Shown here in pieces: positions 1 to 39,184 of a stretch of DNA of 64,000 nt (position 1 is its first letter; every line of letters starts with the position of its first letter). The translations under genes and the position numbers were made by a program. The notes under the pieces are model-generated. The model ran no database searches, was not told the DNA's origin, and saw only the letters and a list, made by a program, of their open reading frames with translations. Source of the stretch: Lentzea tibetensis (lineage in GTDB: Bacteria > Actinomycetota > Actinomycetes > Mycobacteriales > Pseudonocardiaceae); assembly GCF_007845675.1 (NCBI RefSeq), contig NZ_VOBR01000011.1, positions 22,672 through 86,671 on the forward strand, in the 5' to 3' direction.

Positions 1-3000
1 GGGCGGGGAGCTGTCCTGCCCGACGCTCGTGACGCGGACACCTTCTGCGCCAACGTGATCGCCGGCCGGATGAGCATCAGCACGGCCCCCGAGGGACGCT
101 GGAAGGTGCCGCACGGGGTGCCGGAGGGCACGTGGGGTGATGTCGGCGGCTACGTGCGGCACTTCGCCGCCGAACAAGGGCTCGACCCGCAGTTCCAGTG
201 GGTCCGCCACGGTGTCGAGGCCGCGCTCGAGGGACTCGACCGCGGCCGGGCAGGCCTGGTGCTCGGCAACCTGTCGTTCCCCACGGTGGGCATGGCCGAC
301 TACGCGGAACGGGTGTGGCGCGGCAACGAGCGCACCGACCCGCGCAACCGGTTCATGTCCGGGCTGCCCGCGCACCTCACCGGGCTCGACGCGTTCGCGC
401 TGGACGCCGCTTGCGCGTCCAGCCTGTACGCGATCAAGCTCGCCTGCGACCGGCTGCACGACCGCACGGCCGACGTCATGGTCGCGGGTGCGGTGAACTG
501 CGCGGACGACCTGTTCATCCACGTCGGCTTCTCCGCGCTGTCGGCGCTGAGCAAGTCCGGCCGCAGCCGCCCGTTCCACCGCGAGGCGGACGGGCTCGTC
601 CCGGCCGAGGGTGCGGCGTTCGTGTCGCTGATGCGGCTCGCGGACGTGCGGGACGAAGAGGTGTTCGGCGTGATCCGCGGCGTCGGGCTGTCCAACGACG
701 GACGCGGCTCCGGCATGCTCGTCCCCTCCGCCGAGGGGCAGATCCGGGCGATGCGCCAGGCGTACCAGATGGCCGGTGTCGCACCGGAAACCGTCGAGCT
801 GCTGGAGTGCCACGCCACCGGCACGCCCGTCGGCGACGTCGTCGAGGTCACCAGCGCCGCCCAGATCTTCAAGAACCACAAGGGCTTGGCGATCGGTTCG
901 GCGAAGTCGAACGTCGGCCACCTGATCACCGCGGCCGGTGTCGCCGGGCTGATCAAGGTGCTGGGCGCCATGAGGAACGGCGTCCGCCCGGCCACGCTCA
1001 ACGCCGACGACACCATCGACGCGCTCGACGGCACCCCGCTGCGGGTGCTCACCGAAGCCGAGGAGTGGATCAAGCCTAAGCGGGCCGCGGTGAGCGCGTT
1101 CGGGTTCGGCGGCAACAACGCGCACCTGATCGTCGACGCACCGGGCCAGCACCACGGCGCGGTGGAACCGTTGCCGCTCAAGGAACCCGTGGCCATCGTC
1201 GCGATCGGCGCCAAGGTCGGCACCGGCGACAGCACGCACGACCTGACCCGCGCCCTGTTCACCGGCGAGAAGACCGGCAAGCGCGAGTCCGTCGACGTCG
1301 CGCTGCAGGGCCTGCGCATGCCGCCGCTCGACCTCGCGCAGACGCACGCCCAGCAGCTGCTCGTGCTGGAAACCGCGCGCGAGGTAGCGAGGAACCTGCC
1401 GCGCGACCGCACGATGGTGCTCATCGGCATGGGCTGCGACGCCGAGGTCGCCCGGTACGGTGCGCGCTGGCGCGCGGCACCCGAGGAGCGCGACGGCGTC
1501 GTGCCGAACCTGACCAGCGCGGCCGTCGTCGGCACCATGCCCAACATCACCGCGAACCGCATCAACGCCGTCCTCGACCTGGCCGGCCCCAGCTTCAGCG
1601 TCTCGGCGGAGGAGGCCTCGGGCGTGGTCGCGCTCGAGCTGGCCGCCCGCGCGATCCGCCACGGCGAGGCGGACGCCGCGGTGGTCGGCGCGGTCGACCT
1701 GTCCCACGAACCCGTGCACGAGCAGGCGCTCGCGGACCTCGGCATCACGCGCGAGTCCGGCGACGCGGCCGTCGTGCTGGTGCTCAAGAAGTTCAGCGAC
1801 GCCCAGGACGACGAGATCATCGCGCTGCTCGACGACGCCACCTCCGAGGCCGACCTGATCGTGGGGGACAGGGGCTTCGACCCGAGCATCGTCTGCGGCA
1901 CCCCGCACGCCGCCAAGGGACTTCTCGCCGTCGCCACCGCGGCGCTCGCGCTGCGCCACCGCGCCACCCCGCGCACCGGCGCGCCCGCCGACCCCGCGTT
2001 CGACGTCGACACGGCGAAGGTCGTCGTGAAACCGCTGGAGGCAGGCGAGAAGACCGTCCGCCTGCGCCAGCACCGGACGAAGCCGTGGATCGCCGAACGG
2101 CCGCCGCGTCTCCGCGTGTACTCCGGCGCCGACAGGACCGCGGTCATCGACGCACTCGACGCGGGCAGGGAGTCCGGCGAGGGACCGGCCCGGCTCGTGC
2201 TGCTCGACGACGACAAGGCCCCCGCGAAGGCCTGGCTCGAAGGCCGGGCGCTCAAGCCGGAGGGCGCGGCCTTCCGCGCCACCCCGCTCGCGGGCGAGAT
2301 CGGCTTCGTCTTCACCGGCGGTCTCGCCGCGTACCCCGGTATGGGCCGCGAGCTGCTGCTGGCGTTCCCGCACCTGCTCGAGCAGATCGAGGCCCGGTCC
2401 GGCTCGGTGCGCGACGTGGTGGGCTGGGCGTTCGAGGGAGCGGACAGCGAGCCGCGCGAGGTGCTCGACCAGATCTGGGGCACCGCACTGCTCAGCCAGG
2501 TCCACGCCATGATCACCCGCGACCTGCTCGGCATCACGCCGAACGCCGCGCTCGGCTACTCGGCGGGCGAGTCGAACGCGCTGGTCGCGCTCGGCGTCTG
2601 GACGGACATGCGCAAGCTGCGCGCCGAGATGACCTCGTCCGGCATGTTCAGCCGCCAGGTCGCAGGCGAGTTCATGGCCATCAAGCGGGCGTGGGCGCGT
2701 CAGGGCGTCGAGGGCACGCGCTGGAAGAACTACCTGGTCGGCGTCAGCGCGGACCACGCGCGGAAACGACTGCACGGCGAGCAGGCCGTCCACCTGATCG
2801 CGGTCAACTCACCGGACTCGTGCATCATCGGCGGCGAGGTCACCGCGTGCGAACGCGTGCTGTCCACATTGGACGCCGCGTACACGCTGCCCGTCCCGTA
2901 CGAGCTGGCCGTGCACACGCCGGAACTCGGCGAGGTGCGCAACGAGTGGTGGCGGCTGCACTGCCGCCCCACCACGCCACCGCCGGGCGTCCGGTTCTAC

Positions 3001-6000
3001 AGCTGCGCCACGGACGACTCCTACCTGCCCACCGCGGAACGCGTCGCGGACGCGCTCACCGCGCAGGCCGTAGGCACGATGGACTTCGCCGGTGCGATCG
3101 AGCAGGCCTGGCGCGACGGCGTCCGGATCTTCGTCGAGCACGGCCCCAAGTCGCTGTGCAGCGACTGGATCCGCCGCACGCTCGGCGACCGCGAGCATCT
3201 GGCGGTCGCGCTCGACGCGCAGGACGGGCGCAGCGTGCGCCAGCTCAGCAGGGTCGCGGCCGAGCTCGTCGCGGCCGGCGTCGACGTCAACACCACCGCA
3301 CTGCACGACCAGCTCGACTCGGCGGTGCCCGGCACCGCTGCACAACGGAGCGTGCTCACGCTCCCCGCACATCCACCGGAGGTCAGGTTGTCCAAGACGA
3401 CCATGGTTCGTCCACCCGTCCTGCCTCCGGTCACGACCCCGGTGCCGCGACCGTCCCTCCCCGATGCGGTCGCGGCACCGGGCCTTCCCCGAGACGACTC
3501 GAAGCCCGGCCCGAAGTTCACCCGCGAGCAGCTCGAGCACCTCGCCGGCGGCAAGATCTCCGAGCTGTTCGGCTTCATGTTCGAGGCGCAGGACGGTTAC
3601 GCACGCCAGTGCCGCATGCCGCAGCCGCCGATGCTGCTGGCCGACCGGGTCACCGGCATCGACGCCGAACCGGGCAGCATGGGCACCGGCACGATCTGGA
3701 CCGAGACCGACGTGCTGCCGGACGCCTGGTACCTCGACAGCACCGGGCGCATGCCGCCGGGCATCCTGATCGAGTCCGGCCAGGCCGACCTGCTGCTGAT
3801 CAGCTGGCTCGGCGCGGACCTGCTCAACAAGGGCGAGCGCGTCTACCGGTTGCTCGGCTGCGAGCTGACCTTCCACGGCAGCCCGCCCGAGCCCGGCGAG
3901 ACGCTGCGCTACCAGATCGAGATCGACGGGCACGCCGAGCTCAACGGCATCCGGTTGTTCTTCTTCCACTACGACTGCTACGTCGGCGACGAGCTGCGCC
4001 TGTCCGTCCGAAAAGGACAGGCCGGGTTCTTCACCGACCAGGAGCTCGCGGCCACCACCGGCGTCATCTGGGATCCCGAGCTCGAACGGCCGGAAGGCCC
4101 GTGCGAGGCACCGGTCGTGGTCACCGGGCAGCGGAGCTTCGACGCCGAGCAGGTCCGCGCGTTCGCCGATGGCCGTCCGTACGACTGCTTCGGGCCGCAG
4201 TGGGACCTGACGCGGGCGCACATCCGCACGCCGCGCATCGACGACGGCCGGATGCTGTTCCTCGACGAGGTCACCGACTTCGACGTCAAGGGCGGGCCGT
4301 GGCAGCGCGGCTACCTCAAGGCGGAGACGAAGGTCGAGCCCGACGAGTGGTTCTTCGACGGCCACTTCAAGAACGACCCGTGCATGCCGGGCACCCTGAT
4401 GTTCCAGGGCTGCCTGCAGGCGATGTCGTTCTACCTGGCGGGCTGCGGCTTCACGATCGGCAACGACGCGTGGCGCTTCGAGCCGGTGCCCGGCGAGGGC
4501 TACGACATGCGCTGCCGCGGCCAGGTCACGCCCGACAGCCGCAACCTGAGCTACGAGGTGTTCGTCTCCGAGCTCGTCGCGGGCCCGATCCCGACGCTGC
4601 ACGCGGACGTGCTGTGCACTGTGGACGGTGTGAAGGCGTTCCACGCCAAGCGCGTCGGCCTGCGGCTGGTGCCTGCCTGGCCGCTCGACCAGTGGCGCAC
4701 CCGCGAGCTCGCGAACCACGTCGAGACCGGCGCGGTCGCCGAGGCCGGTGGCGTCCGGTTCGACTACGCGGCGCTGCTCGCGTGCGCCTGGGGCAAGCCG
4801 TCCGACGCGTTCGGCGAGCTGTACGCGCGGTTCGACAGCCACCGCAAGGTCGCCCGGCTGCCGGGAGCGCCCTACCACTTCATGAGCAGGATCGCGTCGG
4901 TCGACGGCGCGATCGGCGGCATGGAGGCGGGCAGCTCGTGCGTCGTCGAGTACGACGTGCCCGCGGATGCCTGGTACTTCGAGCAGAACGGCCAGGCCAC
5001 GATGCCGCTGGCCGTGCTGATGGAGGTCGTGCTCCAGCCGTGCGGCTGGCTCGCGTCCTACGTCGGGTGCGCGGTGGAGATCGACAAGGACCTGCTGTTC
5101 CGCAACCTCGACGGCAAGGGCACCATCCACGGCGAGATCACGCCGGACACGAAGGTCGTCCGCACCACCACGAAGCTCCGCGACATCTCGGTCAACGGTC
5201 CGATGATCATCGTCTCGTTCGACGTGCGCTGCTACGGCGACGACGCGCTGGTCTACGAGCTGGACACGGTGTTCGGGTTCTTCCCGCCGGAGTCGTTCGT
5301 CGACCAGCCAGGACTCGGCTGCACGGACGCCGAACGCGCCGCGCTCGCCCCGAGCGGCCAGGTCGTCGACCTCACCGCGCGTCCAGCGAAGTACTGCGAC
5401 GGCGAGCTGCGGCTGGCCGGTCCGATGCTGCTGATGCTCGACCGGGTCACCGGCTACGACCCCACCGGTGGTGCGGCCGGGCTGGGCAGGCTCACCGCGG
5501 AGAAGGACGTCGACGCGGGGGAGTGGTTCTTCAAGGCGCACTTCTTCCAGGATCCCGTGCAGCCCGGCTCGCTCGGCATCGAGGCGCTCTACCAGCTGCT
5601 CCAGTTCTACCTGCTGGAACGCGGTGCGGGCGAAGGGCTGGCGCAGCCGCGGTTCGAGATGATGATGGACAGCGCACCGATGGTGTGGAAGTACCGCGGC
5701 CAGGTCGTGCCGTCGCACACCACGATCTCGTCCGAGCTGGAGATCACCTCGTACGACGCGGAGAACCGGTGCGCGAAGGCCAAGGCGTGGCTGTGGGTGG
5801 ACGGCAGGCGCATCTACAGCACCGCCGAGATCGGAGTGCGGGTGGTCGGTGCGTCCCAGGAGGAGAACTGGCTGCACGACCACCGTCCGACGTGGACGGT
5901 GCCGGTCGTGCCGATGATGTCGGTGGTCGACCAGCTGGCCGGTGGTGAGACGGCGTTGCGCGACGTGACGCTGCGGCGCTGGATCCCGGCCGCCGAGCCG

Positions 6001-6924
6001 CCGCGGATGAAGGTCGAACGTGACGGCTCGCTGGTGACGTTGCTCGTCTGGCGGGACGCGCAGAACCCGGTCCTGTCCCGGTTCGAACCGGTGGCGACCG
6101 CGAAGGTCGTGCCGCGCGGCGCCCGGCCCGCTCCGTTCGCCGAGCTGCCGAACGCCGAGCCGGTCACGGACTTCTACACCTCGGGCGCGCTGTTCCACGG
6201 GCCCGCGTTCCACTACCTGAAGTCGTTGCGGCGCAGTGCCGGTGGCGCTTCCGGTGTGCTCGACGCGGGTGCCGGCTCGGTGCCGCGCGGCAACCTGCAC
6301 CAGGGACTGCTGGACGCGGCGACGCACGCGATCCCGCACGACAGCATGTGGCGCTGGTACCAGGAGATCCCGCGCGACCAGGTCGCGTACCCGCACCGGA
6401 TCACCAGCTTCGAGCAGTACGAGCCGCTGCCGTCGTCGGGTGAGGTTCAGGTCGAGGCGCGGTTCGCGGGGTTCGAGAACGGCGATCGGCGGTTCCCGGT
6501 CGTGCAGCTGCAGCTCCTGAGCGACGGGCAGGTGCTCGTCGCGATGCGGCTGGTGGAGGTGCTGATGCCGACCGGTGTGTTCGGCGCGGCGTCGTCCGCC
6601 CAGCGCCGGGCGTTCCTGCGCGACCGCGTCTACGCCGACGGTCTGGGGCTCTCCACCACCGAGGTGGGCACGACCCGGCTGTCCCTCGCGGACGTCGAGC
6701 AGTGCGACTGGCTCGTCGGCACCGTCGCCAGCGCGTACGGACTGCCGGCGGGAGCCAGGGGACGTGACCACCTGGCCCGCATCGCGGTGCAGGACCACGT
6801 CGCCAGGTTGCTGCGCGTCCACCCGTCTGCCGTCCGGGTGGAAGGGCACACCGCACAGGTCGCGGGCGAGACCTACGACGTGCTCGTCACCGAGCACGAG
6901 TCGGTGGTCTTCGTCCGCGGCTGA
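1..6924 (+). CDS. PUFA-synthase-like type I polyketide synthase (KS-CLF-AT-DH repeats), 5' end outside window
   Basis: Iterative lipid/polyketide multienzyme of the PfaC/Pfa3 type. The frame is open back to base 1, and bases 1-54 already read as KS N-terminus, so the true start lies upstream. Residues are numbered from the ATG at 55. The KS has C120 (DAACASS), H253 (HATGTPVGD) and H289 (NVGH). A second KS-like domain (about 380-690) has E520 where the Cys should be, like a chain-length factor. The AT has GYSAGES (S836) and H1029. Four FabA-like hot-dog segments follow. Those at H1437 (HFKNDPCMPG) and H1829 (HFFQDPVQPG) keep the active His. Those near 1225 and 1645 lack it, giving two degenerate/active pairs. 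A PKS-type DH-like domain (GALFHGPAF, about 2040-2140) precedes a tail resembling a worn phosphopantetheinyl transferase. No carrier, KR or ER is visible, so partner proteins are expected upstream. Product unknown. Confidence 0.88.
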   Translation, partial: GRGAVLPDARDADTFCANVIAGRMSISTAPEGRWKVPHGVPEGTWGDVGGYVRHFAAEQGLDPQFQWVRHGVEAALEGLDRGRAGLVLGNLSFPTVGMADYAERVWRGNERTDPRNRFMSGLPAHLTGLDAFALDAACASSLYAIKLACDRLHDRTADVMVAGAVNCADDLFIHVGFSALSALSKSGRSRPFHREADGLVPAEGAAFVSLMRLADVRDEEVFGVIRGVGLSNDGRGSGMLVPSAEGQIRAMRQAYQMAGVAPETVELLECHATGTPVGDVVEVTSAAQIFKNHKGLAIGSAKSNVGHLITAAGVAGLIKVLGAMRNGVRPATLNADDTIDALDGTPLRVLTEAEEWIKPKRAAVSAFGFGGNNAHLIVDAPGQHHGAVEPLPLKEPVAIVAIGAKVGTGDSTHDLTRALFTGEKTGKRESVDVALQGLRMPPLDLAQTHAQQLLVLETAREVARNLPRDRTMVLIGMGCDAEVARYGARWRAAPEERDGVVPNLTSAAVVGTMPNITANRINAVLDLAGPSFSVSAEEASGVVALELAARAIRHGEADAAVVGAVDLSHEPVHEQALADLGITRESGDAAVVLVLKKFSDAQDDEIIALLDDATSEADLIVGDRGFDPSIVCGTPHAAKGLLAVATAALALRHRATPRTGAPADPAFDVDTAKVVVKPLEAGEKTVRLRQHRTKPWIAERPPRLRVYSGADRTAVIDALDAGRESGEGPARLVLLDDDKAPAKAWLEGRALKPEGAAFRATPLAGEIGFVFTGGLAAYPGMGRELLLAFPHLLEQIEARSGSVRDVVGWAFEGADSEPREVLDQIWGTALLSQVHAMITRDLLGITPNAALGYSAGESNALVALGVWTDMRKLRAEMTSSGMFSRQVAGEFMAIKRAWARQGVEGTRWKNYLVGVSADHARKRLHGEQAVHLIAVNSPDSCIIGGEVTACERVLSTLDAAYTLPVPYELAVHTPELGEVRNEWWRLHCRPTTPPPGVRFYSCATDDSYLPTAERVADALTAQAVGTMDFAGAIEQAWRDGVRIFVEHGPKSLCSDWIRRTLGDREHLAVALDAQDGRSVRQLSRVAAELVAAGVDVNTTALHDQLDSAVPGTAAQRSVLTLPAHPPEVRLSKTTMVRPPVLPPVTTPVPRPSLPDAVAAPGLPRDDSKPGPKFTREQLEHLAGGKISELFGFMFEAQDGYARQCRMPQPPMLLADRVTGIDAEPGSMGTGTIWTETDVLPDAWYLDSTGRMPPGILIESGQADLLLISWLGADLLNKGERVYRLLGCELTFHGSPPEPGETLRYQIEIDGHAELNGIRLFFFHYDCYVGDELRLSVRKGQAGFFTDQELAATTGVIWDPELERPEGPCEAPVVVTGQRSFDAEQVRAFADGRPYDCFGPQWDLTRAHIRTPRIDDGRMLFLDEVTDFDVKGGPWQRGYLKAETKVEPDEWFFDGHFKNDPCMPGTLMFQGCLQAMSFYLAGCGFTIGNDAWRFEPVPGEGYDMRCRGQVTPDSRNLSYEVFVSELVAGPIPTLHADVLCTVDGVKAFHAKRVGLRLVPAWPLDQWRTRELANHVETGAVAEAGGVRFDYAALLACAWGKPSDAFGELYARFDSHRKVARLPGAPYHFMSRIASVDGAIGGMEAGSSCVVEYDVPADAWYFEQNGQATMPLAVLMEVVLQPCGWLASYVGCAVEIDKDLLFRNLDGKGTIHGEITPDTKVVRTTTKLRDISVNGPMIIVSFDVRCYGDDALVYELDTVFGFFPPESFVDQPGLGCTDAERAALAPSGQVVDLTARPAKYCDGELRLAGPMLLMLDRVTGYDPTGGAAGLGRLTAEKDVDAGEWFFKAHFFQDPVQPGSLGIEALYQLLQFYLLERGAGEGLAQPRFEMMMDSAPMVWKYRGQVVPSHTTISSELEITSYDAENRCAKAKAWLWVDGRRIYSTAEIGVRVVGASQEENWLHDHRPTWTVPVVPMMSVVDQLAGGETALRDVTLRRWIPAAEPPRMKVERDGSLVTLLVWRDAQNPVLSRFEPVATAKVVPRGARPAPFAELPNAEPVTDFYTSGALFHGPAFHYLKSLRRSAGGASGVLDAGAGSVPRGNLHQGLLDAATHAIPHDSMWRWYQEIPRDQVAYPHRITSFEQYEPLPSSGEVQVEARFAGFENGDRRFPVVQLQLLSDGQVLVAMRLVEVLMPTGVFGAASSAQRRAFLRDRVYADGLGLSTTEVGTTRLSLADVEQCDWLVGTVASAYGLPAGARGRDHLARIAVQDHVARLLRVHPSAVRVEGHTAQVAGETYDVLVTEHESVVFVRG

Positions 6925-6983: not shown

Positions 6984-8279
6984 CTAGCGGAAGAGGCCGC
7001 GGATCACGGTGGCGACGAGTGCGGGGTGGAACAGGGTCGCCGGGTGGTCGACCATCTGGGAGGTCCGGATGAACCGGCGGTAGACGTGCGGGTTGCCGGG
7101 GATGACGGCGAACAGCTTCTCGCCGTACCACCGCTGCGCGCGGACGTACCAGGGCAGATGTCCCTGGTGCCAGCCGAGGTCGGTGGTCGTCGCGGTCAGC
7201 CACGGCACGCCGACCACGCGGGCGAGCTTGCGCTGGAACCGCCGCTCGATGTTCTGCTTGGGCAGCAGCTTGCCGAGGATCTCGGCGCCGAGCGCGGCGA
7301 GCGTCAGGCCGTGGCCGTAGACCGGGTTCATGGCGCACACCGTGTCGCCCAGTGCGATCAGGCCGCGCGGCCAGTCGCGCACCTTGTCGAACCGGTTCCA
7401 CTTGCTGCCCAGGTTCGCGAACCGGTAGATCGACGAGGCGGGCTCGGCGTTCTTGACGATGTCCGCGACGTCGCGGCACTCCAGCGTGCCCGCGTACTCG
7501 AGGAAGCCGTGTTCGTCGGTCGGCGCGATGTCGCCGCCCGCGCCGAAGAGCGTCACGAACCAACGCTTGCCGTCCACGGTGGACACCGCGCCGCCGCGCT
7601 TCGTGTGCGGGGCGTGGGTGATCTCGTAGGCGGTGAGCCAGTCGAACTTCAGGTCCTCGTCGACGTGGTAGAGCCGCGAGGTGTAGGCGAGGTGGCCGTC
7701 GACGACCTGCTGAGGCGGGCAGTGCACGCCGAGCGGTTTGAGCCAGTCGACGAGCTTGCTCGTGCGGCCGGACGCCACCACGACGAGGTCCGCGTGCTCG
7801 GTGAAGTCGGCGCCGGCGTCGCGGTGCCGCCCGTGGATGCCGACGACGCGGCCGTTCTCGTGCACCAGCCCGTCGACGCGCACCCCGCCCACGACGGACA
7901 CCGACGGGATCTCGAGCACCCGGCGCCGGACGGTGCGTTCCAGCGTCACGCGGGTGACGGACTGGACCTCGATCCCGATCGCGTCGCGCGGCGCCCAGCC
8001 CGCGGGCGCACGGCTCTTGAACTCGCTGCCGACGTCGGCGACGACCGCGCCGAGCTCGGACAGTTCTGCTCTCAGACCGGGGAACAGGTCCTCGAGCACC
8101 TGGGCGCCGCGGGCGAGCAACGCGTGCGGGTGATGTGCCTGAGGCACGCCGCTGCGGTGCGCGGTGTCAGCGTCGATGTGATCGCGCTCGACGAGCGTGA
8201 CGCGGCCGCAGTGTTCGGACAGGACACGTGCGGCGAGCAGTCCGGCGAACCCTGCGCCGACGACGATTGCGTGCTTCAT
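6984..8279 (-). CDS. FAD-dependent oxidoreductase (monooxygenase/halogenase-like fold)
   Basis: Class A flavoprotein of 431 aa. The N-terminus is a Rossmann FAD-binding motif (IVVGAGFAGLLAARVL, with GxGxxG), which fixes the start at the ATG read from 8279, although the frame is open further upstream. A GD motif typical of the second FAD-contact site appears as ALGDTVCAMNPVYGHG near residue 300. That motif is usual in hydroxylase/epoxidase flavoproteins and related dehydrogenases. The Trp-halogenase WxWxIP motif is not evident, so I do not call halogenase. The gene is divergent from the fatty acyl-AMP ligase (132 bp between starts) and convergent with the PUFA-like synthase, so it may tailor the same lipid product. 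That role is inference. Confidence 0.8.
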   Translation of the reverse strand: MKHAIVVGAGFAGLLAARVLSEHCGRVTLVERDHIDADTAHRSGVPQAHHPHALLARGAQVLEDLFPGLRAELSELGAVVADVGSEFKSRAPAGWAPRDAIGIEVQSVTRVTLERTVRRRVLEIPSVSVVGGVRVDGLVHENGRVVGIHGRHRDAGADFTEHADLVVVASGRTSKLVDWLKPLGVHCPPQQVVDGHLAYTSRLYHVDEDLKFDWLTAYEITHAPHTKRGGAVSTVDGKRWFVTLFGAGGDIAPTDEHGFLEYAGTLECRDVADIVKNAEPASSIYRFANLGSKWNRFDKVRDWPRGLIALGDTVCAMNPVYGHGLTLAALGAEILGKLLPKQNIERRFQRKLARVVGVPWLTATTTDLGWHQGHLPWYVRAQRWYGEKLFAVIPGNPHVYRRFIRTSQMVDHPATLFHPALVATVIRGLFR

Positions 8280-8411: not shown

Positions 8412-10112
8412 GTGACCGACTCGATCCTCTCGTCGTTCCAACGACTTCGCGCCGAAGACCCCGACCGGCGGATGTTCACGTTCGTCGACGACAAGGGCAA
8501 CGACGAGGCCACGCTCACCGCGCGTCAGCTCGGCGCGGCCGCGGACCGGGTGGCGGAGTCGTTGCGCGACCGGGGTTTCACTCCGGGTGACCGCGCGATC
8601 CTCGTGTACCCGCCGTCGCTGGACTTCGTCGAGGCCTTCCTCGGCTGCCTCGCGGCCGGCGTCATCCCGGTGCCGGTGTACCCGCCGAACCCGTTCAAGC
8701 TCAAGAAGGACCTCGCGACGTTCAACGCCATCGCGGACAACTGCGGCGCGCGCGGCATCCTGACCAACGGCACGTACGACCGTTCCCGCACCGCCGGCTC
8801 CGTGACCAGCTTCTTCAGCTCGGACACACCCCGCTGGCCGAGCCTGCCCTGGTACCGCACGGACAAGCTGCGTGCGTCCGGCAAGGAAGTCGTTTGGTGC
8901 CAACCAGATTCCGCGACGCCCGCCTTCCTGCAGTACACCTCCGGCTCGACGTCCGCGCCGAAGGGCGTGATCATCAGCCACGGCAACCTCGCCTGCGAGG
9001 TGACCGCCAACGCGGCCGACCTCGGGCTCGGACCGCAGGCGCGCGGCGTGTTCTGGGTGCCGCAGTACCACGATCTCGGCCTCATCAGCGTCATCCTGTC
9101 GACCATCGCGGGCAACGGCCGGACCACCCTCATGTCGCCGCTGACGTTCCTGCAACGGCCGAGCGTGTGGTTCGACGTCCTGTCCCGCACCCGCGCCACG
9201 CACACCGCCGCGCCGAACTTCGCGTTCGAGCTCGCGGTGCGCAAGACGACGCCGCAGCAGCGGGCGGGCTGGGACCTCTCCGCGCTGCGGGCCGTCATGT
9301 CCGCCGCCGAGCCGATCCGTCCTTCCACGATGGACAACTTCTTCGCCGCGTTCGAGGAGACCGGGATCGACCGGGACGTGTTCTTCCCCGCGTACGGGCT
9401 CGCCGAGCACACGGTCAGCGTGTCGATGGGTGGACGTTCCACTTTGCACATCGACAAAACAGCGCTCGAGTCGGGCAAGGTGCTGCCGGCCGCCGACGGC
9501 GTCCCGTACGTCGGGTGCGGCCGGATCACCAAGCCGGACGCGGTGGTGCGCATCGTCGACCCCGTGTCGCTGCGCGAGTGCGGGCCCGACGAGATCGGTG
9601 AGATCTGGGTCGACTCGCCCACCAAGGGACTCGGCTACTGGGGCATGCCGGAGGAGACCGAGGCCGCGTTCCACGCCCGGATCGCCGGCTCGCCGGACGA
9701 CGTCGAGTACCTGCGCACCGGCGACCTCGGGTTCTTCCACGACGGCGAGCTGTTCATCACCGGGCGCAACAAGGACCTGATCATCGTGCGCGGCCGCAAC
9801 CTGTACCCGGCGGACATCGAGGACAGCGTCCGCGACTGCCACCCGCTCATCCGGCCCGGCGGGCTGGCGGCGTTCGCCGTCGAGGTCGACGCGAGCGAGG
9901 AACTGGTGCTGTTCGTGGAGACCAAGGACAAGGTCGGCCTCGACGAGCGCGACGCGATCGTCGAGTCGGTGCGGCGCCGGGTCTACGAGGAGCACCAGCT
10001 CGGCTGCCACGCGGTCGTGGTCGGCAAGCAGGGCATCGTGCGCAAGACGACGAGCGGCAAAGTCCGCCGCTCGGCGTGCAAGCAGGCATTTCTGGCTGGG
10101 GAGGCGGCATGA
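8412..10112 (+). CDS. Fatty acyl-AMP ligase (FAAL)
   Basis: ANL-superfamily adenylating enzyme of 566 aa that activates a fatty acid as acyl-AMP and usually hands it to a carrier protein rather than CoA. P-loop motif LQYTSGSTSAPKG sits near residue 176, the adenylate motif YGLAEHT near 325 and the GDLG hinge near 436. The 'PVPVYPP' segment near residue 77 and the length are typical of the FadD32/FAAL group. C-terminal catalytic Lys region reads TTSGKVRRSACK. GTG start chosen from the GGGAGG ribosome site 8 nt upstream. Its TGA overlaps the ATG of the next gene (ATGA), so translation is coupled. The obvious acceptor is the carrier domain in that neighbouring protein. Confidence 0.92.
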   Translation: MTDSILSSFQRLRAEDPDRRMFTFVDDKGNDEATLTARQLGAAADRVAESLRDRGFTPGDRAILVYPPSLDFVEAFLGCLAAGVIPVPVYPPNPFKLKKDLATFNAIADNCGARGILTNGTYDRSRTAGSVTSFFSSDTPRWPSLPWYRTDKLRASGKEVVWCQPDSATPAFLQYTSGSTSAPKGVIISHGNLACEVTANAADLGLGPQARGVFWVPQYHDLGLISVILSTIAGNGRTTLMSPLTFLQRPSVWFDVLSRTRATHTAAPNFAFELAVRKTTPQQRAGWDLSALRAVMSAAEPIRPSTMDNFFAAFEETGIDRDVFFPAYGLAEHTVSVSMGGRSTLHIDKTALESGKVLPAADGVPYVGCGRITKPDAVVRIVDPVSLRECGPDEIGEIWVDSPTKGLGYWGMPEETEAAFHARIAGSPDDVEYLRTGDLGFFHDGELFITGRNKDLIIVRGRNLYPADIEDSVRDCHPLIRPGGLAAFAVEVDASEELVLFVETKDKVGLDERDAIVESVRRRVYEEHQLGCHAVVVGKQGIVRKTTSGKVRRSACKQAFLAGEAA

Positions 10113-13100
10113 GGTTCGCGACGGGACCGGACGATCCGAGGCTCGACGAGGTCGATCCGTCGTTCCAGTCGGTGATCGAGGCGCTGGGACCGCTGGTCGC
10201 CGCGTCGAAGATGACCAGGCGCCGGGTGTTCCACCGCAACGCGACCGGCGCGCGCGGCGTGCTGCGCGTCGTCGACGCTCCCGACCTGCCGCCGCACTCG
10301 TTCTTCCGGCCGGGCAGGCGGTTCGACGTCACCGCCCGGTACAGCAACAGCATCGAGAACGACGACATCGCGCCCGCCATCCGCGGCGTGACGCTCCGGC
10401 TCGACGGCGGCGAGCTCGACCTGTCGCTGAACACCGGTGACCGGTTCTTCGCGCGGTCGGCCGAGGTGTTCCTGCGCTACTTCCGCGGTGAGGGCGCCGC
10501 GCTGGTCGAGGAGATCCCCGGTTTCCGCGAGACGGCGTGGAACCTGTACCGGCACGCGACTTCCTACGCCTCGTACCACTACTACTCGCAGGTGCCGTCG
10601 GGGTTCGTCAGCCTCGACGGTTCGCGGTGGCTGATCCGCTACCGGCTGGTGCCGGTCGGCGTGCCGGACGCCGGGTTCGTGGATCCGGGCGACCGGTTCC
10701 TGCCGCCCGAGCCGCCCGGCGAGCTCACCCGGTTCGACGCGGACGACCCGCGCCCGCGGACGTTCCTGCACGAGGAACTGCGGGAACGGTTGTCCGCGGG
10801 CGCGGTGTCCGCGGTGCTCCAGGTGCAGCTGCACCCGGTGAGCTCGTCGGACGACGAGAACGAGGCCCCGCTGGACTGCACGCGGGCGTGGAACCTGCCG
10901 TGGCGGGACCTGGCCACGCTGGAGCTCGACTCGATGCTCGACAACGACGCGATCGAGGGCCTGCGGTTCAACCACGCCAACACGCCCGCCGACCTGGGTG
11001 TCGTGCTCGCCACGTCACCGTCGGAGCCCGCTTCGCTGAACCACCTGCGGGCGCTGGTCTACCGGCTGACCGCGGCGGCGCGCATCGGCGACACCTCGGT
11101 GCCCGAGTGCCGTTCCGTGGTGGTCATCGGCGCCGGCCCGGCCGGGCTGAGCTTCGCGCGGGAACTGGAGCGCGCCGGGCATCGGGCGATCGTGCTGGAG
11201 AAGCTGCCCGAGGTCGGCGGCAAGTGCGAGTCGATCGACATCGACGACCGCGCGTACGACCTGGGCGGCCACGTCTGCACGACGCAGTACGAGAACGTCG
11301 CGCGGCTGGCCGTCGAGCTGGGCGTACCGACCGAGGACACGACGCCGCACCGGGTGCACGACATCGAGTCCGGCTCGTCCGTGCCGCAGAGCACCGAGTT
11401 CTTCCAGCGCGCGACCTTCAGCCGCTACCAGGAGCTGCGCGACGCGGAGTTCCCGCTGATCGCCTCCGCCGGACTCGCGCACTCGGCACGGGCGCTGGCC
11501 GAGCCGGTGACGTCGTGGCTCTCCTCGCACGGCCTGACGTCCATGGCCGCTTCGCTGGGCACCGGGTACACCGCGGCCGGCTACGGGTACCTGGCGGGTG
11601 ACCTGCCCGCGCTGTACTTCGTGAAGTACGCCGAGATGACCGGCCTGCTGTCCGCGCGTCCCGAACTGCTGGGACATCCGGGCAGCTTCACGATCGTCGG
11701 CGGCTTCAAGGGCCTGTGGGAGAAGGTCGCCGCGAGTCTGTCCGACGTCCGGTGCGGGGTGAACATCACCTGCATCGCACGGGATCCCGATCGTCCGCGC
11801 AACGGCGTGCTGGTGCGCACCGAGCAGGGTGACGTGGTCGCCGACGACCTCGTGCTGACCGTGCCGATCTCCGAGCTGGTGGACGTGCTCGACGCGACGC
11901 CCGACGAGCTGGACGTCGCGGGCCGGGTGCGGTCGATGGACTACTACACGACCGTCGTCTCCGCCTCTGGCCTGCCGTCGTCGGCGTTCTTCCTGGTGGA
12001 CAACGTTCCCGGGCACGCGGTGTCGTTCCACCACCGGTACCCCGAGAGCGACGTCTACGCCGTGTACTCGTACGGCTCGCCGGAGCTGGACGGTGACGAC
12101 ATCATCGCCGGGTTCCGCGCCGACGTGGAGCGCATGGGCGGCACGATGGGGGAGGTGCACACGCAGCGGCGGTGGAAGTTCCTGCCGTACTTCGGCAGCG
12201 CCGACATCCGCGACGGCGTGTACGACCGGATCGAGCACCTGCAGGGCCGCAACCACACGTTCCACGCGGGCAGCCTGCCGGCCTACGAGCTGGTCGAGTG
12301 CAACGTCGCGTACAGCAGGCAGCTGGTGCGGCAGCACTTCGGCGGTGCGGACGAGGACGACGTGTTCGGCCACGCGGCCGTGATCACCACGGAGGAACGC
12401 CCGGAGCCCACGGTGGACGCGCTGCGCACGTGGCTGGTGTCGCACATCGCCGACGAGCTGCGCCTTCCCGCGACCTCGGTCTCCGCTTCGTCGCGTTTGG
12501 ACAGTTTCGCGCTGGAGTCCATGTCGGTAGCCGCTCTGCAGTCGGGTCTCTCGGACTGGCTCGGCTACCGGATCCCGCACACGTTGTTCCTGGAGCAGCC
12601 GACGATCGACGCGGTGGCCCGGCACCTGGCCGTGGAGGAGGACGCGCCGCCGGTCGCGCCCACCAGGTCGTTGCTGCTGGGCCTGACGTCGGCGCGTCCG
12701 TTCTTCTGCGTCGGCGGCGCTCTCGGTGCCGCGTACTACCTGCTGAAGCTGGCGCGTGACGTCGGTTCGTCGCGGCCGTTCTACGGGCTGCGCGCGCCGG
12801 GCTACGACGGGTTGGAGGAGCCGCTCGACACCGTGGAGGAGCTGGCCGCCCGGTACGTCGAGGAGATCCGCCTGGTCCAGCCGTACGGCCCGTACCTGCT
12901 GGGCGGCCACTCGTTCGGCGGCGTCGTCGCGTACGAGATGGGCAGGCAGCTGCGCGCGGCGGGCGAGGAGGTCACCCGTGTTGTGCTGCTCGATGCTTAT
13001 GTTCCGGTTGCTGGGCAGGATCTGCCGCCGGTCGACGACGCGGCGGCGATCGAGGAACTGCTGACGATGAACCGCCTGGCGTTCTCCTCGGGCGGCCCGG

Positions 13101-14749
13101 CAGGCGTGGAGATCGACCCGTCGCTCGCGATCTCGGAGCAGAAGGAACGTCTAGGCCGCTTCCTGGGCGCCAACGGCTCACTCCCGGTCGACGACCACAT
13201 CAGCAACATGCTGCGCGTGTACCAGGCCAACCTGGAGGCCAACGTCAAGTACCAGCCGCTCCCGTCCGACCTGAACGTCACCCTGATGAAGGCCACCGAC
13301 GGCTTCCCGCCGGTCATGAAGCCGCACCGCAACACCGCTCTGGCGCTCGACGACCCCGCGAACGGCTGGGAGCACGTCAGTTTGGGCACGCTGTCCGTTG
13401 TGGACATTCCCGGCGACCACTTCACCATGTTCGTCGAGCCGCACGACGAGATCATCGCCGGCGCTGTCCACACGTGCCTGGCGGAGGAGGAGCGCCGCTC
13501 GGCGAACACCGTGGGCGCCAAGGCGATCGCGTTCAACCCGGACGACCCGGCGTTCCTCAACGACCCGTACCCGTTCTACCGCGCCCTGCGCGACAGCGAC
13601 CCGATCCACTACGAGGACACCCTCGGCGGCTGGATGCTGACCCGCTACGAGGACGTGTCCCAGCTCCTGCGCGACCCGCGGGTGATCCGCCCGCCGGTGA
13701 CCGACTACCTGTTCGCCTCGGTGCCGCAGTCGCAGCGCGACGAGATGGCCGCGTTCGAACGCCAGCTCGCCGGCTCACTGCCGTTCACGAACGCGCCGTA
13801 CCACACCCGCCTGCGCAGCCTGCTGGGCAAGGCTTTCACCCCGCGCCGCGTCCGCGCGATGCGCGCCAGGATCGCCGAGATCACCGACTCACTGCTCGAC
13901 GTGCTGGACGTGTGCGACGGCGGCGACCTGATGAAGCTGGTCGCGTACCCGCTGCCGTCGACCGTGATCATGGAGTTCATCGGCGTGCCGGAGGAAGACC
14001 ACGCGCGGATGACCTACCTGGCCACCGAGATGATGGCCCTGCTCGGCGCCCAGTACTCGAAGGACGCACCCCTGATCGCCCGCAAGGCGCACGCGGCGAT
14101 GAACGAGTTCGTGTCCTACATGACGTCGCTCATTTCTTTGCGTCGTAGTTCGCCTCGCGAGGACCTGTTGTCGACGTTGATCGGCGGGGAGCTCACCGAG
14201 GAAGAGCTGATCCTCAACTGCATGGCGCTGCTCAACGCGGGTCTCGAGACGACCGCCAACCTGCTCGGTAACGGCACTCTGGCGCTGCTGCGCAACCCCG
14301 CGCAGTACTCGTTGCTGCGGAACGACCCTCAGCTCGCCGAGTCGGCGGCCGAGGAGTTGCTGCGCTACGACGGTCCCACCCCGATCCTCACGCCGCAGCT
14401 GGCCGACGCCGACATCTCGATCGGCGGCCAACTGATCAAGAAGGGTCAGCTGATCTACCCCATGGTGGGTGCCGCGAACCGTGATCCCGTGCGGTTCCCG
14501 GAGCCCGACCAGCTCGACGTCACGCGCCCGCCCAACGGACAGTTGAGCTTCGGTGTCGGCATCCACTTCTGCGTCGGTGCGGCGCTGGCTCGGATGGAGG
14601 CGCAGGAGTACTTCACCCGGCTCACGGCTCGGTTCCCGCACCTCCGGTTGGATCCGTCCATGCCGGCTCCGGTGTTCCGCGACGACCCGTTGTTGCGGGG
14701 TTTGGCACACCTGCACGTCCGCACCTCCGTATGTCCCAAGGACAATTGA
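10109..14749 (+). CDS. Five-domain fusion: catalase-like heme domain, FAD oxidoreductase, acyl carrier, thioesterase, cytochrome P450
   Basis: One uninterrupted 1546-codon frame starting at an ATG overlapping the FAAL stop. Residues about 1-330 resemble catalase-related heme proteins: RRRVFHRN with H42 as candidate distal His, then LSLNTGDRFF with the Asn of the catalase pocket. The usual proximal Tyr motif seems replaced (LRFNHANT). Residues 334-765 are a Rossmann FAD/amine-oxidase-like domain (GAGPAG at 341-346). Residues 770-850 are a carrier domain with LESM (S804) as phosphopantetheine site. Residues 860-1145 are an alpha/beta thioesterase (GHSFGG, S935; H1104). Residues 1150-1546 are a P450 (AGLETT at 1377-1382; heme Cys C1488 in FGVGIHFCVG). 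The order suggests oxidation of a carrier-bound acyl chain, then hydrolytic or cyclising release. Each domain is recognisable; the joint function is inference. Confidence 0.88.
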   Translation: MRFATGPDDPRLDEVDPSFQSVIEALGPLVAASKMTRRRVFHRNATGARGVLRVVDAPDLPPHSFFRPGRRFDVTARYSNSIENDDIAPAIRGVTLRLDGGELDLSLNTGDRFFARSAEVFLRYFRGEGAALVEEIPGFRETAWNLYRHATSYASYHYYSQVPSGFVSLDGSRWLIRYRLVPVGVPDAGFVDPGDRFLPPEPPGELTRFDADDPRPRTFLHEELRERLSAGAVSAVLQVQLHPVSSSDDENEAPLDCTRAWNLPWRDLATLELDSMLDNDAIEGLRFNHANTPADLGVVLATSPSEPASLNHLRALVYRLTAAARIGDTSVPECRSVVVIGAGPAGLSFARELERAGHRAIVLEKLPEVGGKCESIDIDDRAYDLGGHVCTTQYENVARLAVELGVPTEDTTPHRVHDIESGSSVPQSTEFFQRATFSRYQELRDAEFPLIASAGLAHSARALAEPVTSWLSSHGLTSMAASLGTGYTAAGYGYLAGDLPALYFVKYAEMTGLLSARPELLGHPGSFTIVGGFKGLWEKVAASLSDVRCGVNITCIARDPDRPRNGVLVRTEQGDVVADDLVLTVPISELVDVLDATPDELDVAGRVRSMDYYTTVVSASGLPSSAFFLVDNVPGHAVSFHHRYPESDVYAVYSYGSPELDGDDIIAGFRADVERMGGTMGEVHTQRRWKFLPYFGSADIRDGVYDRIEHLQGRNHTFHAGSLPAYELVECNVAYSRQLVRQHFGGADEDDVFGHAAVITTEERPEPTVDALRTWLVSHIADELRLPATSVSASSRLDSFALESMSVAALQSGLSDWLGYRIPHTLFLEQPTIDAVARHLAVEEDAPPVAPTRSLLLGLTSARPFFCVGGALGAAYYLLKLARDVGSSRPFYGLRAPGYDGLEEPLDTVEELAARYVEEIRLVQPYGPYLLGGHSFGGVVAYEMGRQLRAAGEEVTRVVLLDAYVPVAGQDLPPVDDAAAIEELLTMNRLAFSSGGPAGVEIDPSLAISEQKERLGRFLGANGSLPVDDHISNMLRVYQANLEANVKYQPLPSDLNVTLMKATDGFPPVMKPHRNTALALDDPANGWEHVSLGTLSVVDIPGDHFTMFVEPHDEIIAGAVHTCLAEEERRSANTVGAKAIAFNPDDPAFLNDPYPFYRALRDSDPIHYEDTLGGWMLTRYEDVSQLLRDPRVIRPPVTDYLFASVPQSQRDEMAAFERQLAGSLPFTNAPYHTRLRSLLGKAFTPRRVRAMRARIAEITDSLLDVLDVCDGGDLMKLVAYPLPSTVIMEFIGVPEEDHARMTYLATEMMALLGAQYSKDAPLIARKAHAAMNEFVSYMTSLISLRRSSPREDLLSTLIGGELTEEELILNCMALLNAGLETTANLLGNGTLALLRNPAQYSLLRNDPQLAESAAEELLRYDGPTPILTPQLADADISIGGQLIKKGQLIYPMVGAANRDPVRFPEPDQLDVTRPPNGQLSFGVGIHFCVGAALARMEAQEYFTRLTARFPHLRLDPSMPAPVFRDDPLLRGLAHLHVRTSVCPKDN

Positions 14750-14827: not shown

Positions 14828-15697
14828 ATGACGCCACGGCGCTCCACGGCCCGCAGCCGTGACATCGGACTGGAACTGCTCGCCATTCGCGAGAAAGCTG
14901 GGTACGACGGCATCGGGCTCGCCAACCGGCTCGGGTGGGATCAGAGCAAGGTGTCCCGGATCGAGGGTGGCAAGCAGGCTGTCGATGAGGTCGACTTGAT
15001 CAGCTGGCTCACGAGTTGCGACGTGAAGTACCCGCAGCTGCGGCAACTGGTCAACGACAACCGGGAGGCCACAAGGGACACCTGGGTGGTGCCCCACTCG
15101 CCGACCTCGGGCCGGGCTCTCGTCGCTGAGGAACGAGCCGCCAAGACCATCACCCACTACGCGTGCGTCCTGATTCCCGGCCTGCTGCAGACTCGCGCGT
15201 ATGCCCAGGCCACGATCGGTCATTGGCACCAGGACGAGAAGACGATCCTGTTGACGGTCGAGCAGCGGATGACTCGCCAAGAGGTACTGCCCGGGGAACG
15301 CGCGCCCAAGGTCGTCTTCTACATCGAGGAGGGTGTCCTGCTGCGAACCGCCAGCGATGCCGAGATCGGGGAGGAGCAGCTGCTGCATCTGATGTTCATG
15401 GCGGACTGGAAGAAGGTCAGCATCCGCATCCTGCCGACATCCGCGGGAGTGCACTCGGCGGGGCAGGGCTCGTTCACCTTCATCGAACGGCGCGACGGGA
15501 TATTGGTGGCGCGGATCGACACCCGAGCAACCGCGCTGGTCATGGAGAACGAGGTGCACATCGCCGCCTACCAGGAGACGATCAAGGAACTGGACGGTCT
15601 CGCTATGTCCGAGGGACAATCGCGGAAGTACATCGCCAGCCTCGTTGCTGGTCCGCGAGAGGAGTCCGACGACGATGGCCGAGGCGGAGTGGCGTAA
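14828..15697 (+). CDS. XRE-family regulator with C-terminal DUF5753 domain
   Basis: 289-aa helix-turn-helix protein. The N-terminal HTH (GLANRLGWDQSKVSRIEGGKQ, about residues 28-48; shown shortened, key residues Q/SKVSRIE) is the classic actinomycete XRE form. The following region (from about 95) matches the DUF5753 ligand/effector domain: 'YACVLIPGLLQTRAYA' then 'RMTRQEVL'. Such proteins are nearly always encoded beside a small DUF397 protein, as here (23-bp overlap), and act as regulators of development or secondary metabolism. The upstream hairpin is a possible autoregulatory site. The Shine-Dalgarno is weak. Confidence 0.9.
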   Translation: MTPRRSTARSRDIGLELLAIREKAGYDGIGLANRLGWDQSKVSRIEGGKQAVDEVDLISWLTSCDVKYPQLRQLVNDNREATRDTWVVPHSPTSGRALVAEERAAKTITHYACVLIPGLLQTRAYAQATIGHWHQDEKTILLTVEQRMTRQEVLPGERAPKVVFYIEEGVLLRTASDAEIGEEQLLHLMFMADWKKVSIRILPTSAGVHSAGQGSFTFIERRDGILVARIDTRATALVMENEVHIAAYQETIKELDGLAMSEGQSRKYIASLVAGPREESDDDGRGGVA

Positions 15698-29047: not shown

Positions 29048-32000
29048 ATGAACACGGCGGAAATGTCGGGAGAGCATCATCCGCTCGTTGAGGAACTGTT
29101 CCTGGAACAAGTGGAACGGTACCCGGAAGCAATTGCGCTGGTAGAGGGGGAAGTGCGGCTCACCTATCGCGAGCTGCACCGGAGAGCGGGCCGAATCGCG
29201 GCCGGCCTGGTCGCACGCGGTGTCGGGAGAGAATCGATCGTCGCGATGGCGTTCGAACGGTCGGCCGACGCGATCGTGGCCACGCTGGCGATCGTCATGG
29301 CCGGTGGCGCGTACCTGCCGCTCAACCCGAGCTTCCCCGGCGAGCGGCTCGCGCACATGATCGCGGACAGCGGCACCGAGCTCGCGATCTGCGGCCAGGG
29401 GATCGCACTCGCCGGCGTCCCGAACACGACGCTGGCCGAGCTGGACACCGACGCGCAGGCGCCGGTGCCCGCGGAGTGGGACGGCTCGCCGCTCGCGTAC
29501 GTCATGTACACCTCCGGCAGCACCGGCAGGCCCAAGGGCGTGCTGGTCGAGCAGGCGGGCATCGTCCGGCTGGTCAAGGACTCGGACTTCTTCCGGTTCG
29601 ACGCCGGCGAGCGGCTGCTGCTCACCGGAGCGCTCGAGTTCGACGCGGCCACGTTCGAGATCTGGGGCTGCCTGCTCAACGGTGCGACGCTGCACGTGGC
29701 GGGCAAGGAGACGCTGCTGGTGCCGGACGCGTTGAAGAACGCGTTGCGGGACAACGGGATCACCGTGATGTGGCTGACCGCGCCGCTGTTCGGGCAGCTC
29801 GCCGAGCACGACGCGGGGACGTTCGCCGGACTGCGCACGCTGCTGGTCGGCGGTGACGTCGTGCACCGCAGGCACGTCGCGCAGCTGCACGCGCGGTTCC
29901 CCGAGCTGCGGGTGATCAACGGCTACGGGCCGACCGAGAACACCACGTTCACCACGACCTACGAGATCCCGCCCGGCGGCGAGGGCGACATCCCGATCGG
30001 CAGGCCCCTCAACCAGACCACCGTCAAGGTGCTGGACGAGCGGCGGCACCCGGCGGACCAGGGCGAGCTGTACACCGGCGGCGCCGGGCTGGCCAGGGGA
30101 TACCTGAACAACCCCGAGCTGACCGCCGAGAAGTTCGTCGTGATCGACGGCGAGCGCTACTACCGCACCGGCGACCGGGTCACCGTCGACGCCGACGGGC
30201 TGATCTGGTTCCACGGCCGCGTCGACGACCAGGTCAAGATCCGCGGGCACCGGGTCGAGGTCAAGGAGACCGAGTCCGTCCTGCTCCGGTGTGCCGGTGT
30301 GGTGGAGGGCTGCGTCATCGTCAGCGCGGACGACACGGGCAAGTTCCTCAGCGCGTACGTCGTGCTGGCGCCGGACACCGGCCTGCTCGACGTCACCGCC
30401 GAGCTGGCCACCAAGCTGCCCGAGTACATGCGGCCCGAGCACGTCGTCGTCATGGAACGCCTGCCGCTCAACCCGAACGGCAAGGTGGACAAGGCGAAGC
30501 TGCCCCGGCCGCGGACCGAGCAGCACGACCACTCGGACCTCCCGGAAGGCCAGCGGCAGCTCGCCACTCTGTGGGCCGAGGTGCTGCGGGCCGGCCGGAT
30601 CCGGCCGAGCGACGACTTCTTCGAGCTGGGCGGCAACTCGCTCGCCGTCGGCGCGCTGCTCGGCAGGCTCGCCGCGCGGCACGGCGTGCACCTGCCGTTC
30701 AAAGAGGTCTTCGCGAACCGGACGCTCGCCGCGATGGCCGACGCCGTGTCGAAGGCCGCGACCAGGGAGCTCGCACCGATCCACGCCGTCCCCGACGGCG
30801 TGCCCTCGGAGCTGCACCCGCAGCAGCGCGGCCTGCACACGCACTGGCAAGTCGACGAGAAGTCGTTGGCGTACAACGTTCCCGTCCGGCTCGACATCAC
30901 CGGCCCGGTCACCCCGCGCGGTGTGCGCGAGGCACTCGCCGAGTTGGTCGACCGGCACGACGCGCTGCGCACCAGGTTCGTCGGAACGCGGCAGGTCGCC
31001 GACTCCGGCGTCACCGTGCAGCTCGTCGAGTCGCAGTACATGCGCGACGAGGACGTGGTGCGCGCGTTCGTCCGGCCGTTCGACCTCACCAAGGCGCCGC
31101 TCGTGCGCGCGCTGCTGGTGCGGGTGGACCACGCCCGGCACCGGCTCTACCTGGACGTCCACCACGTCGTGTTCGACGGGGTGTCGCTGGGGATTCTCGT
31201 GTCGCAGCTGACGGATCTGCTGGCCGGCGTCCGGATCGGCACGCCGCGCTGGCGCTACGCGGATGCGTCGCAGTGGTGCGCGGACCGGATCGCGGACGGC
31301 ACGTTCGCCGCAGACGGGCGGTACTGGCTGGAGACGCTGGCCGACCCGCCGCGACTCGACCTGCCGACCGACCACCCGAGACCCGAGGTCCGCAGAACGG
31401 CCGGCGCGACCGTTCGCCGCAAGTGCTCGAACGAGCAGGTCCGCCGGATCGCGCAGCGGGCGGGCACCACGGACTTCGTGGCGTTGCTCAGCGCGTACTC
31501 GGCCGTCCTGATGCGGTTGTCAGGACAACGCGACATCGTTGTCGGCAGCCCGACGAGCGGCCGCGTGCACCCCGACTTCGACGGCGTGGTCGGCATGTTC
31601 GTCAACACCGCCGCGCTGCGGATCGGCATCGACGAGCAGGCGAGCCTCACCGACCTCGTGCACGCGACGAAGCAGCGGCACGCCGAAGCCCTCGAGCACC
31701 AGGCGTTCCCGTTCGACGACGTCGTCGCCGGGCTGGGGCTGCCGCGCGACCCGAGCCGGTTGCCGCTGCTGGACGCGTTCTTCGCGTTGCAGAACATCGA
31801 CTTCTACACCTTCGAACGCGACGAGCTGCGCGTCGAGGTCGAGCTGCTGCACCCGCACTCGTGCCGGTTCGACCTGAACCTCCAGGCCTACCAGCGTCCC
31901 GAGGGGATCGTGCTCGAGCTCGAGCACAACACCTCGCTGTTCACCACGGCGTCCGCCGAGTACCTGCTCAGCCGGGTCACCGACCTGCTCGACGAGCTGG

Positions 32001-32083: not shown

Positions 32084-32092
32084 AAGGACTTC

Positions 32093-39183
<7,091 letters not shown>

Positions 39184-39184
<1 letters not shown>

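Follow-up and report, generated by a model that had tools for sequence, protein, structure and literature searches.

A five-domain fusion protein beside a predicted polyunsaturated fatty acid synthase in Lentzea tibetensis, and its possible role as a carrier-tethered oxylipin synthase

A 64,000-nucleotide stretch of the Lentzea tibetensis genome (contig NZ_VOBR01000011.1, positions 22,672 to 86,671 of the forward strand; hereafter the window) encodes a single protein in which a catalase-related heme domain, an FAD domain, an acyl carrier domain (ACP), a thioesterase (TE) and a cytochrome P450 are joined in one open frame of 1546 codons (10109-14749, plus strand). The gene lies beside genes predicted to encode a polyunsaturated fatty acid (PUFA) synthase, and we propose, with roughly even confidence, that the fusion is a carrier-tethered oxylipin synthase. 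Each of the domain families is already known; what appears new is their carrier-tethered union beside a PUFA synthase, an arrangement that hints at a so far undescribed way for bacteria to make oxidised lipids. No description of the fusion architecture was found in the open literature (most subscription journals lay outside the search).

Five domains in one frame

Pfam scans of the entire fusion protein placed Amino_oxidase at residues 345-619 and p450 at residues 1216-1511, with PP-binding and Thioesterase between them (Table 1). The C-terminal domain carries the Cys-heme motif, the ExxR motif and the acid-Thr pair of the I helix that mark a P450 monooxygenase. A preliminary description of this DNA had reported five enzyme types in a single frame coupled to a fatty acyl-AMP ligase (FAAL), and had called for a search for the P450 C-terminus and for the same architecture in other genomes. 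Both of its statements hold: the frame is open, the Pfam domains are present, the C-terminal P450 among them, and the ATG of the fusion overlaps the stop codon of the FAAL gene. The closest homologue, in Lentzea sp. NBRC 105346, has the same five domains in one frame, is 81.7% identical in amino acids across 1527 aligned codons, and keeps the ATG and a leader with GGAG; shorter heme-FAD-ACP(-TE) fusions occur in five further genomes. The Nei-Gojobori dN/dS between the two Lentzea fusions is 0.24 overall and ranges from 0.11 to 0.30 across the five domains; the fusion is under purifying selection. An assembly or frameshift artefact is ruled out by the colinear fusions in other genomes together with this overall ratio. 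A plasmid origin is without support, as no plasmid match was obtained at 1e-100.

The heme domain

Searched against the PDB as a single sequence, residues 1-333 matched coral allene oxide synthase (AOS) at 3.3e-31 and 3.8e-30 (two entries), and nothing that followed was better than 0.11, the value of the best catalase. A six-row profile of the domain gave 3.1e-45 for the coral enzyme, 2.9e-14 for 3e4w, which we take to be a mini-catalase, and 8.4e-8 for the best catalase. The earlier guess of a catalase-like domain of the coral AOS type is thus confirmed, and the closeness to coral AOS, far ahead of catalases, is one of the grounds for the oxylipin reading. Pfam scans of the entire fusion protein gave no catalase at E<=0.001 or at E<=0.1. 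When residues 1-333 were scanned separately, PF00199 (Catalase) reached 25.5 bits (gathering score 25), covering residues 38-137 only and not the whole length, as a monofunctional heme catalase would; the family was also found at E<=0.1 in four of six homologues. The domain is missed by whole-protein annotation because the catalase match arises only for the N-terminal 333 residues alone, and the catalase-like N-terminus for which a domain search had been suggested was reached only in this way. A plain catalase reading was rejected on the negative whole-protein scans together with the value of the best catalase in the PDB.

In the coral heme pocket, according to PMC5617202, R64, R102 and R360 coordinate the heme, T66, H67 and N137 are distal and Y353 is proximal. 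The HMMER alignment to the coral enzyme placed R39 at R64, R77 at R102, F41 at T66, H42 at H67, N108 at N137, R314 at R349 and Y318 at Y353, and R325 was assigned to the place of R360 by spacing. Residues R39, R77, R325, H42, N108 and Y318 are identical in 10/10 aligned sequences with ~40% identity among them, and this retention of the heme-ligand residues also argues for the oxylipin reading. The preliminary description had seen the pocket as altered on the proximal side. A proximal defect is rejected because R314 and Y318, the counterparts of coral R349 and Y353 in the alignment, are invariant; judged from the alignment, it is the distal side that is changed, with the proximal side intact. 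The conclusion drawn earlier, that the pocket argues against simple catalase activity, is plausible on other grounds, while the argument from a proximal change falls away.

The place of coral residue 150 is Phe (F121) in all ten sequences. PMC5617202 gives Leu at this place in coral AOS and Phe in the coral lyase; F150L in the lyase moves the products towards those of AOS, and since L150F leaves the products of AOS as before, residue 150 alone cannot separate AOS from lyase. At the place of coral K107, a possible binding residue for the free carboxylate (PMC5617202), the domain has I82, a replacement that would suit a carrier-bound chain and to that extent speaks for the oxylipin reading. The intact heme-ligand residues and the bulky distal Phe, unlike coral AOS, together with the oxidative partner enzymes all around, would also fit a peroxygenase, in which the heme domain epoxidises or hydroxylates the carrier-bound chain with H2O2 as a second monooxygenase beside the P450. 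We consider this improbable, as the sequence offers no specific pointer to it and, among solved structures, an AOS is the closest.

The FAD domain

As a single sequence against the PDB, the FAD domain matched 2b9w end to end (3.6e-32), the runner-up being a part-length monoamine oxidase match (7e-14), and a 13-row profile matched 2b9w at 1.1e-56. This entry was deposited as a 'putative aminooxidase' and is, we presume, the PUFA isomerase of Propionibacterium acnes. The FAD-binding GxGxxG is present, and the domain falls in the amine-oxidase superfamily. The label 'FAD oxidoreductase' in the preliminary description was too vague, the closest relative being this isomerase. By their PDB matches, the heme and FAD domains are therefore nearest to solved enzymes of polyunsaturated fatty acids or their hydroperoxides, and the full-length resemblance of the FAD domain to a PUFA isomerase is a further ground for the oxylipin reading.

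Gene neighbourhood

PfaA, PfaC and PfaD, with FabA-like dehydratases, are all found next to the fusion (Table 1), and the Pfa genes are predicted from these matches to encode a PUFA synthase. The PfaC gene starts 27 bases before the window, and its acyltransferase match is slightly below the Pfam cut-off. An epoxidase-like gene sits between PfaC and the FAAL. The best NCBIfam names for the ligase are FAAL types, with scores under the curated cut-offs. The adjacent Pfa genes and the epoxidase, absent from the preliminary description, matter for the reading of the fusion: that PfaD, PfaA and PfaC adjoin it, and that a gene for a polyether-type epoxidase separates them from the FAAL, argues for an oxylipin synthase. 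The regulator encoded downstream is, from its position only, a possible cluster regulator.

Two further observations concern other loci. The window also holds two nonribosomal peptide synthetase genes (29048-39184; adenylation, carrier and condensation domains) with no evident link to the fusion. A second PfaD-family gene above the curated cut-off (G000:C66:279599-280912) has a P450 match (C66:278359-279330) and synthase frames of great length in its vicinity.

Table 1. Domains of the fusion protein and neighbouring genes. Positions are those of the window unless stated otherwise.
Feature	Position	Strand	Residues and motifs	Basis
Catalase-related heme domain, coral AOS type	10109..11107	+	1-333	PDB and Pfam matches, alignment
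FAD domain, PUFA isomerase type	11108..12343	+	334-745	Pfam and PDB matches
Acyl carrier domain	12431..12628	+	775-840; LESM motif at 802	Pfam (PP-binding 775-840), motif
Type I thioesterase	12698..13471	+	864-1121; GHSFG at 933	Pfam (Thioesterase 864-1121), motif
Cytochrome P450	13526..14746	+	1140-1546; AGLETT 1377, EELLR 1415, FGVGIHFCVG 1481	Pfam, motifs
FAAL, translationally coupled to the fusion	8412..10112	+		AMP-binding 7.4e-60, DIP2-type C-terminal domain 9.4e-10
Flavin monooxygenase like polyether epoxidases	6984..8279	-		LasC/Lsd18 and MonCI matches, 5.6e-54 and 6.9e-53
PfaC-like PUFA synthase subunit: ketosynthase (KS), chain length factor (CLF), acyltransferase-like, four FabA-like dehydratase matches	1..6924	+		Pfam
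PfaA	L009 13081-19632, just upstream of the window, same contig			TIGR02813, 1811 bits, above curated cut-off
PfaD	L009 11433-13076, just upstream of the window, same contig			TIGR02814, 631 bits, above curated cut-off
Helix-turn-helix/DUF5753 regulator, downstream of the fusion	14828..15697	+		Pfam

Distribution and evolution

Counting the source genome each time, the heme domain was found in 2/25 genomes of the genus, 4/200 of a family sample, 3/394 of a class sample and 1/396 of a phylum sample (the source genome only), and the FAD domain in 16/200 of the family sample. There are at least seven heme-FAD-ACP fusions, in the source genome, Lentzea sp. NBRC 105346, Saccharopolyspora spinosa NRRL 18395, S. 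elongata, Pseudonocardia sp. ICBG1293 and the genomes G379 and G560; this count is a lower bound because the class and phylum searches scored five candidates per genome and the scan for related loci used two peptide patterns. Among the seven, only the two Lentzea fusions have the P450 domain. Those of G379 and G560 are without a TE match, and a separate 4HBT thioesterase gene adjoins the G560 fusion.

A FAAL lies immediately upstream in 7/7 of these fusions, and Pfa genes adjoin 5/7, whereas they adjoin 1/10 FAD-ACP-TE loci without a heme domain (Fisher p 0.035, ignoring relatedness). This gene order is again in keeping with an oxylipin synthase and is counted in its favour. The comparison leaves out the lone FAD genes L051, L052, L056 and G086, and also G126 and G158; the Pfa count also excludes weak matches (28 to 33% identity) to other parts of polyketide synthases near G140 and G183, and the flanks are unequal, the contigs of G379 and G170 being 19.7 and 16.1 kb long. 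The broader idea that every FAD module is tied to a PUFA synthase was rejected, PfaD above the cut-off being present in 5/14 genomes searched.

Related loci of other composition were also found. A paralogous FAAL followed by a FAD-ACP-TE-P450 fusion with 56% identity lies at G000:C2:90255-95608 (L010 18253-19998, L011 2-3609); it has no heme domain, and no Pfa genes occur within the 80 kb examined. Both Lentzea genomes have a stand-alone heme-domain copy overlapped or abutted by a single polyketide-type dehydratase gene (L012 8896-10673, G000:C55; L043 9801-11569, G193:C6); this dehydratase and the C-terminal one of PfaA share 45-47% identity. Genome G082 holds a lone heme-domain gene (L053 9997-11073) with a convergent P450 gene next to it, and the 20 kb examined there gave no match to a FAAL or an FAD module.

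The seven heme-bearing sequences fall within one group of eight in a tree of 20 FAD domains (support 93/94), G183 being the exception. Mapped on this tree, the heme label requires two changes, compared with 5.9 with shuffled labels, and this was reached by 0/500 shuffles. A vestigial or structural heme domain, with FAAL, FAD, ACP, TE and P450 as the working module, would account for its absence from G183 inside the heme-bearing group, and from ten FAD-ACP-TE loci, the C2 paralogue among them. We regard such a role as very improbable, given the pocket residues that stay invariant among such diverged sequences and a heme-domain dN/dS of 0.30.

Discussion

We infer the following substrate, order of steps and product from the domains and their neighbours. 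The PfaD-PfaA-PfaC synthase would make a long polyene, which the FAAL would activate as an acyl-AMP and load onto the ACP within the fusion. The isomerase-type FAD domain would move or add double bonds by removing hydride at an allylic or bis-allylic position, and from an oxygenated (hydroperoxide-type) chain the heme domain would form an epoxide, an allene oxide, a ketol or, by cleavage, an aldehyde. Further oxygen would be put in by P450 hydroxylation, and the TE would free the product; another double bond may be oxidised by the MonCI/Lsd18-like enzyme in the two Lentzea genomes. As to the origin of the peroxide, one specific version, which we think quite unlikely, has the FAD domain standing in for the lipoxygenase of the coral fusion: bis-allylic hydride removal, followed by reaction of the reduced flavin with O2, would deliver a peroxide to the heme domain, and the product would be either an aldehyde from chain cleavage or a carrier-made bacterial counterpart of the jasmonate or clavulone oxylipins. 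Hydroperoxide might also come from the products of two An_peroxidase-family genes at other places in the genome.

Several observations weigh against an oxylipin synthase. The place of Arg88 of the P. acnes isomerase, presumably a carboxylate gate, is Arg in the window and other residues in the Saccharopolyspora and Pseudonocardia sequences. The distal Thr66 of the coral enzyme is replaced by Phe in every one of the ten aligned heme domains. No PF00305 lipoxygenase match was obtained in the genome or in 246 genomes of its class, and as no control genome gave a match either, these searches cannot prove absence. The genomes G379 and G560 are without any PfaD match, and the genomes of most heme-less FAD modules are without PfaD above the cut-off. 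Finally, Capnella imbricata AOS (cAOS) itself degrades H2O2, with a kcat of 303 per s (PMC5617202), and a catalase role is therefore compatible with closeness to cAOS.

As the main rival, we consider an oxidase that carries its own peroxide scavenger: the FAD domain would be an acyl-ACP oxidase giving a conjugated polyene and H2O2, the heme domain would only remove the H2O2 where it arises or use it as a peroxidase, and the P450 and TE would tailor and release the product. The place of the FAD domain in the amine-oxidase superfamily and the high catalase activity of which coral cAOS is capable (PMC5617202) are in keeping with this, and neither a lipoxygenase nor a PUFA synthase would be needed, as the G379 and G560 genomes without PfaD might suggest. 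The heme domain is, however, far nearer to AOS than to any catalase, and ten FAD-module loci have no heme domain; because such heme-less modules are common, the heme domain is not required merely for protecting the flavin step. We judge an oxidase with a scavenger to be less likely than a carrier-tethered oxylipin synthase.

The coral AOS-lipoxygenase fusion (PDB 1u5u, 3dy5) and the Capnella imbricata hydroperoxide lyase share with the heme domain the heme-coordinating Arg, distal His and Asn and proximal Tyr (PMC5617202). As in the coral fusion, the heme domain is N-terminal to a domain for unsaturated fatty acids, but here an FAD domain replaces the lipoxygenase, a tethered carrier, a TE and a P450 are added, Phe takes the place of Thr66, and place 150 is Phe as in the C. 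imbricata lyase. The FAD domain resembles the presumed P. acnes isomerase over its full length in both the single-sequence and the profile search; here, however, it is fused to a carrier, and Arg88, with its presumed role, is absent from some fused relatives. In FAAL-loaded lipid and lipopeptide assembly lines, the FAAL hands a fatty acid to a carrier; here the carrier is embedded in an oxidative fusion rather than heading a chain-extending synthase. The minus-strand gene is like the MonCI and Lsd18 (LasC) polyether epoxidases at ~1e-53 and lies here beside a PUFA synthase, and no MonCI/Lsd18-like gene was matched in the examined flanks of the Saccharopolyspora and Pseudonocardia loci. The Pfa genes themselves are like those of the PUFA and secondary lipid synthases of PMC3098273, with PfaD and PfaA above the NCBIfam cut-offs and a PfaC-like subunit with KS, CLF and FabA-like domains; unlike at the locus studied here, neither a FAAL nor a P450, a catalase or an amine oxidase is named as their partner in the passages of that paper that were considered.

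If the oxylipin reading is correct, bacteria would perform oxylipin chemistry, comparable to that of plant jasmonates and coral prostanoid-like lipids, on a carrier fed by their own PUFA synthase. Many 'secondary lipid' synthases have uncharacterised products (PMC3098273), and one group of them would thereby gain a function. The range of coral-type heme enzymes would be extended to actinobacterial natural products, and the fusion would represent a single self-contained protein for the production of oxidised lipids.

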